Source: Candidatus Nitrosopelagicus brevis (GTDB taxonomy: Archaea > Thermoproteota > Nitrososphaeria > Nitrososphaerales > Nitrosopumilaceae). Taken from it: DNA of 64,000 bases. Made by a program: the position numbers and the translations under genes. The DNA lies in the NCBI RefSeq assembly GCF_000812185.1, contig NZ_CP007026.1, positions 935,107 through 999,106 of the forward strand, written 5' to 3'. Shown here piece by piece: positions 28,711 to 48,452 of this stretch (position 1 is its first letter; every line of letters begins with the position of its first letter). The notes under the pieces are model-generated. The model saw nothing but the letters and a program-made list of their open reading frames with translations. It did no database searches and had not been told where the DNA came from.

Positions 28711-29223
28711 TTATTCTATATCTGCAATTACATCATTTTTGTTAACAGAGTTACCTTCTTTGATTTTGATACCTTTGACTATACCATCTTTTTGTGCTTT
28801 AACAGCAACTTGCATCTTCATTGATTCTAAGGTACAAACTGTATCACCTTTCTTTACTTCAGCACCATCTTCAACATCAATTGATACAACTTTTCCTGGA
28901 ATTTGACTACGTAGAGTAGATTGACCAGCACTAGAATCACTGCCACCAGAGTTTTTGAAAACAATATCATCAAGATGTGAGTTCATGTTTACAGACATCG
29001 ATGAACCATCTACAATGAAATTCATCTCAGAAGTTTGACTATCAACATATCTCACTGAATGAAATTCATTGTTTAAAACAAATTCCATAACATTTGAATC
29101 TGTGTGAAGAATTTTTACTACATATTCATTATCTTTAATCTTAATTTTGTATTCATCTTTGGATAATTTCTCTAAGATTTCACCATCTACAACTTCATCA
29201 CTATCTTGAACTTTGTACTTCAT
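28711..29223 (-). CDS. Biotin carboxyl carrier protein of acyl-CoA carboxylase
   Basis: The start at 29223 (MKYKVQDSD) is chosen because it sits just inside the stop of the upstream biotin carboxylase gene; an earlier ATG at 29250 is possible. The C-terminal biotinyl domain has the biotin-attachment motif CTLESMKMQVAV and the typical IKEGNSVNKNDVIADIE end. The N-terminal half is a beta-rich domain. It carries biotin between the two catalytic subunits encoded directly upstream. Confidence 0.9.
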   Translation of the reverse strand: MKYKVQDSDEVVDGEILEKLSKDEYKIKIKDNEYVVKILHTDSNVMEFVLNNEFHSVRYVDSQTSEMNFIVDGSSMSVNMNSHLDDIVFKNSGGSDSSAGQSTLRSQIPGKVVSIDVEDGAEVKKGDTVCTLESMKMQVAVKAQKDGIVKGIKIKEGNSVNKNDVIADIE

Positions 29224-29225
29224 TT

Positions 29226-30728
29226 TTACATTATACCTCTCTCTACCCATGTAGAGATTCCATCTGTGTCACCAGAGTTCTGAGATTTTACTTTACTTTT
29301 ATAGAATTCAGAGTGCATGATTGCCGATGCAATAGCAGGAATTTGTTTTTCTTTTCTATCTTGAATTAGGTCTTTTTCTAATTTTTCAATCATATCATAT
29401 CTCTTTAAGAAATCAGTTGATAGTTGACCGTTCTTGTATTCTTCAGAGTTTAGAATAGTTTTGTATAATGGAATTGAAGTTTCTACACCTTGAATGTCAA
29501 AGTCATTTAGAGCATTTAGCATTTTTACTCTTGATTCATCAAATGTTGGTCCCCAAGTACAGAGTTTTGCCATCAAAGAATCATAAAATGGAGATACAGT
29601 ACAACCAGGATACAAGTATGTGTCACATCTAACATTTGGTCCTGAAGGTATTGTAACATATGGAACGGGACCAGTTGATGGTGCAAAGTCTAAGAAAGTA
29701 TCTTCTGCGTTAATTCTACATTCAATAGCATATCCATTCATCTTTAGATCACTTTGTTTGAATGGTAATGTTTCTCCATTTGCAATATCTAGTTGAAGTT
29801 TTACAAAGTCTAATCCAGATACCATTTCAGAAATTGGATGTTCTACCTGTAATCTTGCATTAATTTCTATAAAATAAAATTCTCCATTATCTGCTCTCAA
29901 AAATTCTGCTGTACCCAAATTAGTATAATCAACTGCTTCTGCGGCTTTTACAACTAATTCGCCAATTTCCTCTCTTTTTGCTTGATCAACTATAGGAGAA
30001 GGAGTTTGTTCAATTAGTTTTTGGTTTCTTCGTTGAATAGAACATTCTCTTTCAAAGAGATGTACTGCATTACCATGCTTATCTCTACACATCTGATATT
30101 CAATGTGTCTTGTTTTTTCTAAGAACTTTTCAACAATTATTGCAGATTTTCCAACGGCAGCTATAGATTCAGAGGTAACTGTATCAAAGCCATCTTGTAA
30201 TTCTTTATCATTAGTAACTAATCTAATTCCACGACCTCCTCCACCATAAACGGATTTCAAAAGTACAGGATAACCAATTTCATTTGCAATTTTTTCTGCT
30301 TGTTGTGCATCATCTACTATTCCCGGGCTTCCAGGTACAGTTGGGACGTCAGCTTTTAGCATTGCTGCTTTACAACGCATTTTATCTCCACAAAGATTCA
30401 TTGAATCTGCAGAAGGTCCAATAAAGTTGATGTTGTTCTTTTCACATAATCGTGCAAAGTCATCATTTTCTGAAAGGAATCCATAACCAGGATGTATGGC
30501 ATCTGTACCAGAAGATAACATTACTTCGAGAATTTTTTCTTGATTAAGATAGCTCTTTGCAGGTGCAGCCTCACCTATGTAATATGACTCGTCAGCAGTT
30601 TTTACATGAAGGGAGTTTACATCCTCATCTGAATATACTGCTACAGTCTTAATTCCCAAAGTCTTACATGTTTTCATTACACGAAGGGCAATTTCTCCTC
30701 TGTTTGCAATTAGTACTTTCTCAATCAT
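29226..30728 (-). CDS. accC: Biotin carboxylase subunit of acetyl-/propionyl-CoA carboxylase
   Basis: A 500-aa ATP-grasp enzyme that carboxylates biotin. It has the N-terminal FKVLIANRGEIALRV-type segment (IEKVLIANRGEIALRV), the glycine-rich ATP loop LKSVYGGGGRGIRLV, and the signature EFLRADNGEFYFIEINARLQVEHPISEMVSGLD. Sits between the carboxyltransferase and carrier genes. In thaumarchaea this set fixes bicarbonate onto acetyl-CoA and propionyl-CoA in the HP/HB cycle. Confidence 0.95.
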   Translation of the reverse strand: MIEKVLIANRGEIALRVMKTCKTLGIKTVAVYSDEDVNSLHVKTADESYYIGEAAPAKSYLNQEKILEVMLSSGTDAIHPGYGFLSENDDFARLCEKNNINFIGPSADSMNLCGDKMRCKAAMLKADVPTVPGSPGIVDDAQQAEKIANEIGYPVLLKSVYGGGGRGIRLVTNDKELQDGFDTVTSESIAAVGKSAIIVEKFLEKTRHIEYQMCRDKHGNAVHLFERECSIQRRNQKLIEQTPSPIVDQAKREEIGELVVKAAEAVDYTNLGTAEFLRADNGEFYFIEINARLQVEHPISEMVSGLDFVKLQLDIANGETLPFKQSDLKMNGYAIECRINAEDTFLDFAPSTGPVPYVTIPSGPNVRCDTYLYPGCTVSPFYDSLMAKLCTWGPTFDESRVKMLNALNDFDIQGVETSIPLYKTILNSEEYKNGQLSTDFLKRYDMIEKLEKDLIQDRKEKQIPAIASAIMHSEFYKSKVKSQNSGDTDGISTWVERGIM

Positions 30729-30734
30729 ATTTAA

Positions 30735-32309
30735 TCACAGGTTGATATTTCCATGTTTTCTAGGAAGTTGTTTATCACGTTTGTTACTCAACATCTCAAG
30801 AGCCTTAATCAGCATTGGACGTGTCTCTGCTGGATCAATAACGGTATCAACTGTACCATTTGATGCAGCAACGTAAGGATTTGCAAATTTTTCAGTAAAT
30901 TCATCTTTTAGTTTCTTTAGTAATTCTTCAGGATTATCAGCATTGGCCAAGTCTTTTCTATTCATGATTTTGACAGCACCTTCTGAACCAAGTACAGCAA
31001 TTTGTGCAGTTGGCCATGCATAGTTAACATCAGTTCTTAGATTTTTACTTCCCATTGCAATGTATGCACCACCATATGCTTTACCAATTACAATAGTAAT
31101 TTTTGGAACGGTTGCTTCACAATATGCGTATAGTAGTTTACTTCCATGTCTAATTATTCCATTATGTTCTTGGTTTGAACCCGGCATGTAACCAGGAGTG
31201 TCAACAAGAGTAATAATTGGAATTCCATAACAATCACAGAAGCGAATGAATCTTGCTGCTTTGTTTGATGAATCAATATCTAATGCGCCTGCCAAAAACA
31301 TTGGTTGATTAGCAACAATGCCTACTGTTTTTCCATTCATTCTTCCAAATCCAACTACTACGTTTTGTGCAAACAGTTCATGAATTTCAAAAAATTTGTT
31401 GTCATCTAAAATTGAATAAATAATTTCTTTCATGTCATAAGGTTTTAGTGAATCTTCTGGAACAATGTTTATCAAATTATTATCTAATCGATTTGGATCA
31501 TCAGATGTTTTTATTGAAGGAGGTGCTTCAGAATTATTTTGTGGGATATAAGATAGAAGAGATTTGATGTAATCCATGCATTGGTATTCATTTTGTGCAA
31601 CAAAATGTGCTACTCCACTTTTTGTTCCATGCGTCATTGCTCCGCCTAAATCTTCAAATGAAATTTCTTCACCGAGAACAGTTTTTACAACTTCAGGTCC
31701 AGTAACATACATTGTTCCTGCTTTTTCTACCATGATAACAAAATCAGTCATTGCTGGAGAGTAAACAGCGCCACCTGCAGAAGGTCCAATACTTGCAGTA
31801 ATTTGTGGAACTACACCAGATGCGAGTTCGTTATGATAAAAGATATCAGCAAAACCATCTAAACTTAGAATTCCTTCTTGAATTCTTGCACCACCAGAAT
31901 CTGCAATTCCAATGATTGGACATCCATTTCTTACTGCATGATCCATAAGTTTGGTAATTTTTTTAGCTCCCATCTGGCTTAATGTGCCGCCAAGAACTGT
32001 AAAGTCGTAAGCAAATACATAGACCTGTCTTCCATTAACGTTTCCATAACCACCTACAACACCATCAGTGAAAAATTTCTTTTTTTGCATGTCATATTCG
32101 TGATAATGATGAGTAACCATAGCGTCAATTTCAACAAAAGATCCATCATCACAAAGTAGATCAATTCTCTCTCTAGCAGTTAATTTGCCTTTGTCGTGCT
32201 GAGCCTTGATTCTATCTTGGCCACCTCCTTGAACAGAAGTTTTTTTGTTATTCAGATATTCATTAATTTTATCAGAATGCATGCCCGAATTTTCCGCATC
32301 AGATATCAT
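30735..32309 (-). CDS. pccB: Acyl-CoA carboxylase carboxyltransferase subunit
   Basis: A 524-aa crotonase-fold carboxyltransferase. Both halves are present: GVVGGYGNVNGRQVYVFAYDFTVLGGTLSQMGAKKI in the N-terminal part and DTPGYMPGSNQEHNGIIRHGSKLLYAY in the C-terminal part. First gene of the three-gene carboxylase operon; 6 nt to the biotin carboxylase. Its promoter must lie in the 31-nt gap or in the end of the rfcL operon. Confidence 0.95.
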   Translation of the reverse strand: MISDAENSGMHSDKINEYLNNKKTSVQGGGQDRIKAQHDKGKLTARERIDLLCDDGSFVEIDAMVTHHYHEYDMQKKKFFTDGVVGGYGNVNGRQVYVFAYDFTVLGGTLSQMGAKKITKLMDHAVRNGCPIIGIADSGGARIQEGILSLDGFADIFYHNELASGVVPQITASIGPSAGGAVYSPAMTDFVIMVEKAGTMYVTGPEVVKTVLGEEISFEDLGGAMTHGTKSGVAHFVAQNEYQCMDYIKSLLSYIPQNNSEAPPSIKTSDDPNRLDNNLINIVPEDSLKPYDMKEIIYSILDDNKFFEIHELFAQNVVVGFGRMNGKTVGIVANQPMFLAGALDIDSSNKAARFIRFCDCYGIPIITLVDTPGYMPGSNQEHNGIIRHGSKLLYAYCEATVPKITIVIGKAYGGAYIAMGSKNLRTDVNYAWPTAQIAVLGSEGAVKIMNRKDLANADNPEELLKKLKDEFTEKFANPYVAASNGTVDTVIDPAETRPMLIKALEMLSNKRDKQLPRKHGNINL

Positions 32310-36687: not shown

Positions 36688-37524
36688 TTATCCGTATGAT
36701 TCGTATTTGACTTCAAATGTTCCATCTTCATGTGGATTATCTCTATTGACAAATCCTCTATCAGCAACATATTCCATTACACCATCAATAGTTCCTTGAT
36801 AACCACAAATGTAAATTCTAGTGTTTTCTGGAGTTACTTTTTCTCCAACTAGTTCATCTAGTGGAGAGACGCCTTGTGCATTTTCTTTGAAAAATGATTC
36901 AACTCTTCCTACTTGACCATTCCATGATCTATTGTATTGTTCTTTTGGTCTACTGATTGCAGCTCTGTACAAAAAGTTCCATTTATCTACTCCTCTCTCT
37001 TTACTTTCATTTTCAAAGTCAGTAAGAAGACGTTTGTAACTTAGTTCGTCAACATAACTTGCACCATGTAAAACTACAAGTTGTCTTTTATCATTTGTAT
37101 CACGAAAATGATGTGCAAAAGCAATGAATGGTGCAAGACCAGTTCCACCACCTACACAAACAACTCTTCTGTTGTCTGGTTCTCCGTTACGATATTTGTC
37201 TTCAATTATCAAGTCGTCACCTGTTGGATCACCAAGTAATACTTCATCACCAACACTAAGATAGAATAATTCAGTGGTTACACGACCAGGTAGTGGTTTT
37301 CTTACCCATCGAATTACAAATTCAAAATAATCTCTATTTTCAGCATGTGATGCAATTGAATATGCACGTTTCACAATTTTATTTTCTGCACGTACTGGCA
37401 ATCCAATAGTTAGAAATTGTCCAGTTTTGTATTTTGGCATACCGTTTTCCGGTACTAGACGAATAACAACTAGATCTTCTTTTAATAATTCAGTATAGAT
37501 GATCTTTGCTTTTGTATCAGCCAT
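36688..37524 (-). CDS. Ferredoxin-NADP reductase-type flavoprotein, copy 1
   Basis: A 278-aa FAD/NAD(P)H oxidoreductase of the FNR superfamily. FAD motif RAYSIASHAE (RxYS), NADP-binding GGGTGLAPFIAF, and C-terminal ICGYQGTIDGVMEYV followed by an end in YESYG, the aromatic residue that stacks on the flavin. Closely related in sequence to the second copy at 47610. It may pass electrons between NAD(P)H and ferredoxin or directly toward complex I, which lacks NADH-oxidising subunits here. Confidence 0.87.
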   Translation of the reverse strand: MADTKAKIIYTELLKEDLVVIRLVPENGMPKYKTGQFLTIGLPVRAENKIVKRAYSIASHAENRDYFEFVIRWVRKPLPGRVTTELFYLSVGDEVLLGDPTGDDLIIEDKYRNGEPDNRRVVCVGGGTGLAPFIAFAHHFRDTNDKRQLVVLHGASYVDELSYKRLLTDFENESKERGVDKWNFLYRAAISRPKEQYNRSWNGQVGRVESFFKENAQGVSPLDELVGEKVTPENTRIYICGYQGTIDGVMEYVADRGFVNRDNPHEDGTFEVKYESYG

Positions 37525-37619
37525 GTGAAGGAAGTTTCTTGATTTGGATAAATGTATTTCTCTTCAAAAGTTGACAGTATTACTTATATTTAGAAAATTA
37601 TCCAGCCAAAATTAGTAAG

Positions 37620-37784
37620 ATGGCAAAAATTACATGCAGAGACTACGGATTTGAATGTCATTATGAAATAGAAGGCGAAGTAGAAAACGTGATCGATGAA
37701 TATAGAAAACATAGTACTGAAGAACATGGCATTGAATATTCACCTGAAGCACTAACTCAAGTAATTTTAAGACAACAAGGTTAA
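37620..37784 (+). CDS. DUF1059-family small protein
   Basis: A 54-aa protein, MAKITCRDYGFECHYEIEG..., matching DUF1059: two conserved cysteines (C6 and C13) and HSTEEHGIEYSPEALTQVI. Function unknown; the family is widespread in thaumarchaea and halophilic archaea. TATA-like ACTTATATTT near 37577-37588 is a possible promoter. Convergent with hemA. Confidence 0.8.
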   Translation: MAKITCRDYGFECHYEIEGEVENVIDEYRKHSTEEHGIEYSPEALTQVILRQQG

Positions 37785-37795
37785 TTTTAAAAAAA

Positions 37796-38866
37796 TTATG
37801 CTCTTTTCATTGAAGCAGATAAAACAGGTAATTCTTTGTCAATGATTTTCTCAACAGCGGGTACAATTCCTGCTCTTAATCTTGCATTTTCTTCATAAAT
37901 TTCTGCAACTTGATCTCTGAATAGTAATTTTATTCGAGGCAATTCCATAATTGTTTCTTCTACAGCTCTTGGCTCAGAGATATCTAAAATTAAAGTTCCT
38001 TTTTTCTTTTCTTTCATAACAAGTTTGATTGTTTCAAGATCAATCAAGAAGTAATCAGCAGTAGTTGCAACTATAATGATATCAAATTTATCAAATCCGG
38101 TAAGTACATCAGCAAATTCTAGTGGAGTGCCACACAATAGTTGTGAGAAATTGGCAGCACGTTCCATGTCTTTACTAGTAACTGAAAATGAGATTTCTTT
38201 TTGCCCCAATGTTTTTGCAACCATAGCGGCAGATTCGCCGGTTCCAATGAGTAAAACCTTCTTTTTTGCATCCAAGCCAACTTTTTCTTCTATCAAGTTT
38301 AATGCAACATCACCTAATGATAGAACTTCTTTACTTATTTCAGTTGAACCTCTAATAGAATTAGCAAGTCGAATTATACTGTCAAATAATTTATTAAGAA
38401 TTTTACCAGATGCGCCAGATTTTTTAGCATTTTCTATTGATTTTTTAATTTCGTCAAAAACTTCTTCTTTTCCAACAACTATAGAATCTAATCCACAAGC
38501 TAATCTTAAAAGATGGAGATAGACATCATCGTCTTTAAAAACTTCAAGAGTTTGATCAAAATGATCAATATCAATTTGTTCAATGTTAGAATTTTCTTGC
38601 CATGTTTCTTTCATCTGATTAATTATCAAACCTTTTCCTTCAGGTCTTCGAGCATCTGTTGAATCATCTGTTTCAAGATTACTAACGGTGAAAATTTCAA
38701 CTCTACTTGATGTTTGTATGATAATACATTCTTCAACACCAGGTATTTTTTTAAAAGCATCTGTTGCAGCAGCTACATCTTTGAATGCAAACCGTGCGAG
38801 AGAATGTAAAGGAACGTTTTTGAATGTGACTCTTGCGTTTAAGACATCAAATTTTACATCACTCAT
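37796..38866 (-). CDS. hemA: Glutamyl-tRNA reductase with serine at the catalytic cysteine position
   Basis: A 356-aa protein with the HemA three-domain layout: the catalytic domain (1-145), an NADPH domain with LLIGTGESAAMVAKTL, and a helical dimerisation end. In canonical enzymes the active-site motif reads TCNRxE, with the cysteine forming the thioester. Here it reads QTSSRVEIF (T52, S53, S54, R55, E57), so both Cys and Asn are replaced; Arg and Glu stay. H118 is kept, but the GExQI motif is GKEEV. C47 is the only nearby cysteine. It may use another nucleophile or have another task. Confidence 0.85.
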   Translation of the reverse strand: MSDVKFDVLNARVTFKNVPLHSLARFAFKDVAAATDAFKKIPGVEECIIIQTSSRVEIFTVSNLETDDSTDARRPEGKGLIINQMKETWQENSNIEQIDIDHFDQTLEVFKDDDVYLHLLRLACGLDSIVVGKEEVFDEIKKSIENAKKSGASGKILNKLFDSIIRLANSIRGSTEISKEVLSLGDVALNLIEEKVGLDAKKKVLLIGTGESAAMVAKTLGQKEISFSVTSKDMERAANFSQLLCGTPLEFADVLTGFDKFDIIIVATTADYFLIDLETIKLVMKEKKKGTLILDISEPRAVEETIMELPRIKLLFRDQVAEIYEENARLRAGIVPAVEKIIDKELPVLSASMKRA

Positions 38867-38885
38867 ATCATATCACCAAAATTTT

Positions 38886-39551
38886 TTAATTTTTTCTTCC
38901 ACCTTTAGCGGTTCTAAAAACATTCATTCCCAGATAATAATTTTCATGTAGTGAATCTAAATATGAAAGATTTTGTTCAATTTGTTCAATTTGTTCAGGT
39001 AATGATTCAGGATCACTTTTGAGACGATCTAGTTTTGCTTGCAATTCATCACCAAGAACAGTTATTCCGGTTTCATAATTTGATGTTCCACCAAAACGTT
39101 CATCTAAAATATTTTGAGGGTTGTATTCAGGAGTAGTATCTTCATAACTAAGAGCTTTTCTTGTAATGTCATCTTTTTCATCTTCAGACAAGATAGGTTT
39201 TGGGAATCTGTCAACTTTATCCAAGAAAAATTCCGGTTCACCCATTTCTCTTCTAAATATAATTTCATTTTTTCTTTTGTTAGTTACATCAGGTGCTTTT
39301 GGAGCTTCTTCTTTAATTTCGTCTGCAATTGCTTTGAACTCTTCTTCTGATGCTTTTGCTGCAGCCTCTTTCAATTCTTTGGCTTTTGCAATTGCTGCAT
39401 CTGCAGCTGCTTCAGCATCTGCAGCAGCTTTTGCTGCTTTTTCTGCATCTTTAGATGCCTTGAGAGATTTTTTAGCATCTTGTTTTTGGGATTCTTTATC
39501 TGCTTTTGGAGCATCTTTTACTTCAGAATCTTTTTTGTCGTCAGACATCAA
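38886..39551 (-). CDS. Ala/Lys-rich coiled-coil protein of unknown function
   Basis: A 221-aa protein. Residues 1-75 are a charged region rich in Lys, Ala, Asp and Glu, with long alpha-helical Ala-rich runs likely to be coiled coil. The second half (FRREMGEPEFFLDKVDRFPKPILSEDEKDD... ) is more conserved-looking, with QIEQIEQNLSYL from a 9-bp tandem repeat near 38970-38999. It has no membrane helix or signal. It lies 19 nt upstream of hemA on the same strand and could share its transcript. Function unknown. Confidence 0.65.
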   Translation of the reverse strand: MMSDDKKDSEVKDAPKADKESQKQDAKKSLKASKDAEKAAKAAADAEAAADAAIAKAKELKEAAAKASEEEFKAIADEIKEEAPKAPDVTNKRKNEIIFRREMGEPEFFLDKVDRFPKPILSEDEKDDITRKALSYEDTTPEYNPQNILDERFGGTSNYETGITVLGDELQAKLDRLKSDPESLPEQIEQIEQNLSYLDSLHENYYLGMNVFRTAKGGRKN

Positions 39552-47609: not shown

Positions 47610-48452
47610 ATGGTTCAAGACAATAAAGCAACATTAACTTATACACAATTACTAAAAGAGGATCTTGGCATATTTCGCCTTGTTCCAGAAGATGGAGTGA
47701 TTCCAGATTACAAACCTGGCCAATTTTTAACAATTGGGATGCCAGTACCAGGTGAAGATAATAAAATTGTTAGACGTGCATATTCAATTGCATCACATCC
47801 AGAAAATAAAAAATTCTTTGAGTTTGTAATTAGATGGGTTAGAAAACCATTTCCAGGTAGATTGACAACAGAATTATTCAATGCAAAAGAAGGTTCAGAA
47901 GTTAGTTGGATTAAACCAACAGGTCATTTAACAATCAATAATGAATTACCAGATGGAGAACCAGATACAAGAAGAATTGTATGTATTGGCGGAGGAACAG
48001 GACTCGCTCCATTTGTTAGTTATGCACAACATCTTCATGACATAGGAGACAAAAGAGAGATTATAGTTTTGCATGGTGCAAGTTATGTAGATGAATTAAG
48101 TTACAAACAACTTCTTACCGATTTAGAAAATGAGAGTATTGATAAAGGAACAGACAAGTGGAATTTCAAATATAGAGCAGCAATAAGTAGACCACAAGAA
48201 TGGTTTAATCGTGCATGGACAGGTCAAACAGGAAGAGTAGAACAATTCCTAAGATCAAAAGCTGGAGAAAAATCCCCATTAGAAGAATTGGTCGGAGAAC
48301 CAATTACCAAAGATAACACAATGTTTTACATTTGTGGATGGCAAGGAACAATTGATGGAACGATGGATTACTTACAAAACAAGGATTTCGTAACAGAGCG
48401 AAAAAAACGTCCAGATGGAAGTTACGAAGTTAAATTTGAATCATATGGTTAA
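47610..48452 (+). CDS. Ferredoxin-NADP reductase-type flavoprotein, copy 2
   Basis: A 280-aa paralogue of the protein at 36688-37524, with RAYSIASHPE, GGGTGLAPFVSYAQ and ICGWQGTIDGTMDYL, ending FESYG. The two align along their whole length. The gene has a clear TATA box at -26 and an adjacent inverted repeat, so it may be regulated while the first copy is not. Role as for copy 1: NAD(P)H-ferredoxin or similar electron transfer. Confidence 0.87.
   Translation: MVQDNKATLTYTQLLKEDLGIFRLVPEDGVIPDYKPGQFLTIGMPVPGEDNKIVRRAYSIASHPENKKFFEFVIRWVRKPFPGRLTTELFNAKEGSEVSWIKPTGHLTINNELPDGEPDTRRIVCIGGGTGLAPFVSYAQHLHDIGDKREIIVLHGASYVDELSYKQLLTDLENESIDKGTDKWNFKYRAAISRPQEWFNRAWTGQTGRVEQFLRSKAGEKSPLEELVGEPITKDNTMFYICGWQGTIDGTMDYLQNKDFVTERKKRPDGSYEVKFESYG

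Follow-up and report, generated by a model that had tools for sequence, protein, structure and literature searches.

The glutamyl-tRNA reductase (GluTR) HemA/GtrR (TIGR01035; PDB 1gpj, 4n7r, 5yjl) uses NADPH to reduce an acyl thioester (PMC7242693, PMC6399207). An archaeal heme survey gives one hemA for N. maritimus, NMAR_0510 (PMC3004389), and we found no description of a second HemA in these archaea in the literature searched. Here we analyze such a protein, HemA2, encoded in a stretch of 64,000 nucleotides from Candidatus Nitrosopelagicus brevis (the window). It shares with GluTR the fold, the N-terminal domain, the NADP(H) domain, the spinal helix and the T..R.E frame. In contrast to GluTR, it has neither the catalytic Cys nor the Asn, its pocket Glu/Gln are replaced, and the window protein has no dimerisation domain. 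It also carries new inserted segments, has other gene partners and scores under the hemA equivalog cut-off.

Two further systems resemble this locus. HisZ is a non-catalytic paralogue of HisRS that serves HisG as a regulatory subunit. Like HisZ, HemA2 is a paralogue of a tRNA-dependent enzyme that has lost its reaction, and in the complex we propose it would have a partner in another pathway; it differs in parent enzyme and pathway. Acyl-CoA carboxylases, in turn, can have small extra subunits, such as actinobacterial AccE/PccE and haloarchaeal PccX. The core of HemA2's partner protein is likewise a small helical protein encoded beside pccB, but it matches no Pfam or NCBIfam family and is here fused to a HemA2-linked extension.

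Much of the nitrification and dark carbon fixation in the ocean is due to marine ammonia-oxidising archaea, for which gene assignments have been missing in parts of the CO2-fixation cycle. As of 2018, several reductases of this cycle had no assigned gene, among them those that reduce malonyl-CoA and succinyl-CoA in Nitrosopumilus (PMC6038301). HemA2, its adaptor and the carboxylase described below are concrete candidates for a missing or regulatory step.

Table 1. Position of HemA2, its segments and its neighbors in the window
Feature	Coordinates	Strand	Remarks
accC and accB-like genes, acetyl-/propionyl-CoA carboxylase	28711..30728	-	Names by homology
pccB, carboxyltransferase subunit of the same carboxylase	30735..32309	-	Name by homology; partner core ancestrally attached to operon
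FNR-type flavin reductase (FNR1)	36688..37524	-	FAD_binding_6 and NAD_binding_1; neighbor of HemA2 in nearly all loci
HemA2, GluTR paralogue without catalytic Cys	37796..38866	-	356 aa, no dimerisation domain
NADP(H)-binding domain, residues 193-318 (predicted)	37913..38290	-	GTGE loop intact; D271 in place of canonical Pro
GKEEV replacing GEEQI (GExQI motif), residues 132-136	38459..38473	-	
HemA2-specific DxxHxDQ segment, residues 99-105	38552..38572	-	D99, H102, D104, Q105 nearly or fully invariant
HemA2-specific inserted loop, residues 65-80	38627..38674	-	D71, R73, L80 invariant; residues 65-79 of low pLDDT
TSSRVE replacing TCNRVE, residues 52-57	38696..38713	-	Ser53 = TCA, Ser54 = AGT
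Partner (adaptor)	38886..39551	-	221 aa; immediately upstream of HemA2
Partner C-terminal core domain	38889..39134	-	Homologue of the small protein that other ammonia-oxidising archaea encode upstream of pccB
IFRREMGEPEF block of partner	39225..39260	-	Only in HemA2 carriers

The active site of HemA2

The original prediction held that the TCNRxE motif of HemA has become TSSRVE, with serines at positions 53 and 54, that GExQI has become GKEEV, and that the NADPH domain is intact. These readings are correct. The translated frame contains EECIIIQTSSRVEIF, and its codons 52-57 (38713-38696) are ACA TCA AGT AGA GTT GAA. A sequencing error is ruled out, since two changes would be needed to turn a Cys codon into TCA and the Ser-Ser pair recurs in 17 further genomes of the genus. 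Pfam recognizes both GluTR domains (GlutR_N, 3.8e-29; Shikimate_DH, 1.1e-18), with the GxG loop and SR(T) of the latter kept. Against the hemA equivalog TIGR01035 the protein reaches 191 bits, under the cut-off of 209.55. The absent C-terminal dimerisation domain, which went unmentioned in the original prediction, shortens it to 356 aa compared to 426 aa in the canonical copy. The seven best PDB matches of its AF2 model (pLDDT 86) are all GluTR chains, with E-values down to 1.3e-22 and a TM-score of only about 0.5 over the multi-domain shape.

We then compared HemA2 proteins with canonical copies (HemA1). Of 100 positions that never vary among 21 HemA1 proteins, HemA2 keeps 50, partly keeps 19 and has lost 31; 18 of the lost positions belong to the C-terminal domain, itself absent from most HemA2. 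The other 13 include C57, N58, E119, Q121 and Q125, which are the catalytic and pocket residues known for GluTR, with the Glu/Gln serving substrate binding. The pocket residues E, Q, Q (GExQ..Q) have mostly become K, E, E. Conversely, the nucleotide domain largely retains GxG, SR(T) and D-S-xPR, and the Thr, Arg and Glu of the TCNRxE frame and the pocket Thr, Arg and Ser are kept. HemA2 also has invariant or nearly invariant residues of its own, D186 and D271 among them in addition to those in Table 1, and its inserted loop is a candidate partner-binding surface. A Nitrosopumilus group of HemA2 proteins (L081, L082, L100 and others) has Trp replacing Lys133 (GWQSVF).

One proposal had been that the protein remains a GluTR with another nucleophile, Ser53 or the nearest cysteine, C47. 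The conserved Arg, Thr and Glu of the motif would suit such an enzyme. The proposed search for the same Ser in relatives succeeded within the genus, where the 17 genomes share it, and failed across the clade: position 53 is Ala in most HemA2 and otherwise Ser, Thr, Gly, Pro or Gln, never Cys, and the next residue is never Asn. With six residues occupying the cysteine position, no serine replaces the nucleophile. C47 is a leftover from the canonical copies, in which it is also present, and it is Val in both members of the Cenarchaeum-like genus g2. Neither position is conserved in HemA2, the pocket Glu/Gln are replaced and the genome encodes a canonical HemA, so we reject both residues as nucleophiles and regard continued GluTR activity as very improbable. 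Judged from its residues, the active site is gone, not replaced, and a database-style hemA label for HemA2 is misleading and calls for caution in annotation.

Canonical HemA and the history of HemA2

The window genome (1.23 Mb, single contig, 99.5% complete) also encodes a canonical 426-aa HemA with TCNRVE and GEEQI (G000:C1:379609), scoring 346 bits, above the hemA cut-off. By sequence resemblance, the adjoining genes are hemB, a siroheme-decarboxylase-like gene and a precorrin-2-dehydrogenase-like gene; hemL is present as well. There is therefore no need to assume that heme is made through the window gene. The original prediction had named a second complete HemA as the finding that would tell against it, and this is what the search recovered. 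Of its three alternatives it is the third, a change of role with heme made by a different HemA, that holds, and its interpretation thus survives in this part and not in the part invoking another nucleophile. Most likely, HemA2 has left heme synthesis for another function.

HemA2 occurs in 131 of 185 genomes of the family Nitrosopumilaceae, each at least 80% complete. The 32 HemA2 proteins sampled all fall in a single clade apart from the canonical copies (support 100/100): HemA2 arose once, within this family. A viral origin was considered and rejected, with no relative among viral contigs. HemA2 is missing from genera g5-g7, g30, g31, g36, g38 and g40 and from other families, despite the same carboxylase operon. 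Most HemA2 are without the dimerisation domain, which some lineages of about 414-424 aa keep (L054, L055, L155, L156 and others), indicating either repeated loss or a regain through recombination. The canonical HemA of one subclade of the genus (L034, L035, L036 and L038, from genomes G008, G026, G011 and G024) groups with the HemA2 branch instead of the genus's other HemA1, possibly pointing to the lineage from which HemA2 arose or to a further transfer.

Loss of catalytic residues could also mean a decaying pseudogene or a sequencing artefact. However, median dN/dS among close relatives is 0.085 for HemA2 (66 pairs), compared to 0.046 for HemA1, so HemA2 is under purifying selection and is not decaying. 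Together with its presence in 131 surveyed genomes and its specific invariant residues, this rules out decay or error, whose probability we put at next to nothing.

The partner gene and the carboxylase

The partner lies directly upstream of HemA2, on the same strand and with a gap of 7-33 bp, at 131 of 133 HemA2 places; at the two places without it, the contig ends 136 and 241 bp away. Only two genomes have a long partner without a listed HemA2, and both cases are due to assembly: a run of Ns interrupts HemA2 in G092, and the partner leaves the contig in G168. The partner consists of an Ala/Glu/Lys helix, the IFRREMGEPEF block and a conserved helical-hairpin C-terminal domain with a GMNVFRTAKGGR tail. 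All long partners examined have the block, and the 24 loci without HemA2 all lack it. G032, which is without HemA2, is also without the block and keeps the core at pccB; in G065, of the same genus, HemA2 and the block are both present. Searches with the partner returned no Pfam or NCBIfam match and no solved structural relative. Its AF2 model is confident in the C-terminal hairpin only and, being poor overall (pLDDT 65), was left out of the fold search.

Genomes without HemA2 keep only the partner's C-terminal domain, encoded as a separate protein of about 67-190 aa. At 22 of 24 such loci, from four families, this free core precedes a pccB frame on the same strand at a distance of 5-99 bp (once 367 bp), with accC and accB following where the locus extends; the other two have no pccB frame within the stretch covered. 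Free cores end in GMNVFRxAxGGR and belong to no known family (for example L190:4141-4365, L193:4039-4248 and L194:4059-4328). Among 61 genomes sampled across the order, the core domain is present in all 24 with archaeal amoA and in none of the 37 others, a match that is not an independent statistic because these genomes may form a single clade. The core is thus a candidate signature protein and putative carboxylase subunit of ammonia-oxidising archaea, and a previously unnamed adaptor ties HemA2 genetically to the key carboxylase of the CO2-fixation cycle.

In genera g2, g3, g28 and g34, HemA2 and a convergent FNR gene lie between the long partner and pccB, apparently at the place of the original insertion. 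The window genome and related genomes have the HemA2-partner pair at a distance of about 6.5 kb from pccB; some lineages (G020, G209, G070) have no pccB near the pair. HemA2 carriers of g37 encode the long partner away from pccB, where they have a short core, so in this genus the long partner need not serve the carboxylase. Assigning the core as a small subunit of the carboxylase is a guess, and gene neighborhood is functional linkage, not contact.

Catalytically dead paralogues often regulate their parent enzyme. HemA2 descends from HemA1 and keeps the GluTR fold, and it could regulate heme synthesis by binding HemA1, HemL or Glu-tRNA. Three observations make this unlikely. The loci examined are not near hemA1/hemB-type tetrapyrrole genes, with G070 alone having hemC/cobA/hemD-like genes two genes away; the dimerisation domain that a mixed dimer would need is missing in most HemA2; and the genetic ties of the constant partner lead to pccB and not to hem genes.

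Roles considered for HemA2 and apparent transfer of its cassette

The reading we favor, at about an even chance, is that HemA2 has been repurposed as an NADP(H)-binding subunit without GluTR activity, held by the adaptor to the carboxylase of CO2 fixation. HemA2 would no longer make glutamate-1-semialdehyde, having lost the Cys, the Asn and the pocket Glu/Gln of the thioester chemistry and, in most members, the dimerisation domain while keeping the NADP(H)-binding domain, which its conserved motifs predict to bind the cofactor. A single operon would yield both HemA2 and the adaptor. The most likely role of the adaptor's additional N-terminal stretch, IFRREMGEPEF, is to bind HemA2; the adaptor's C-terminal domain, which occurs elsewhere as the free core, is probably a small subunit of the acetyl-/propionyl-CoA carboxylase. 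In the resulting complex, HemA2 would be a pseudoenzyme subunit that adjusts or organizes the carboxylase according to reductant supply.

Alternatively, HemA2 may be an NADPH-dependent reductase of an existing thioester, such as malonyl-CoA or another acyl-CoA from the neighboring carboxylase. With a CoA-thioester substrate, hydride would pass directly from NADPH to the thioester and the enzyme cysteine would be unnecessary, and GluTR chemistry is itself the NADPH reduction of an acyl thioester (PMC7242693, PMC6399207). The intact nucleotide domain, the retained pocket Thr, Arg and Ser, the partner's genetic tie to the carboxylase and the FNR neighbor all fit, as do the Nitrosopumilus malonyl-CoA and succinyl-CoA reductase genes without assignment in 2018 (PMC6038301). 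However, many ammonia-oxidising archaea with the same carboxylase operon have no HemA2, and pocket positions 53, 118, 133 and 135 vary among HemA2 in a way unlike a working active site. We consider such a reductase doubtful. The more specific version, in which the adaptor-held protein reduces a carboxylated CoA thioester such as malonyl-CoA directly with NADPH and lost its Cys for that reason, seems to us decidedly improbable. If true, it would add an unrecognized reductase to the CO2-fixation cycle in most marine ammonia-oxidising archaea; direct reduction is less likely than a non-catalytic subunit.

In the window clade, HemA2 nests with Nitrosarchaeum-like HemA2, whereas HemA1 groups with other members of the genus, and a tree in which the genus's HemA2 are monophyletic is rejected (p-AU 5.8e-12). 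FNR1 has the same Nitrosarchaeum-like placement in its tree as HemA2. The neighboring argH, in contrast, resembles that of the same genus more closely (71%) than that of the Nitrosarchaeum-like genome (63%). The FNR1-HemA2-partner cassette (36688-39551) of the window clade thus appears to come from a Nitrosarchaeum-like donor, and the apparent joint transfer of the three genes supports a shared function. The window genome retains a second FNR gene at 47610-48452, apparently vertically inherited.
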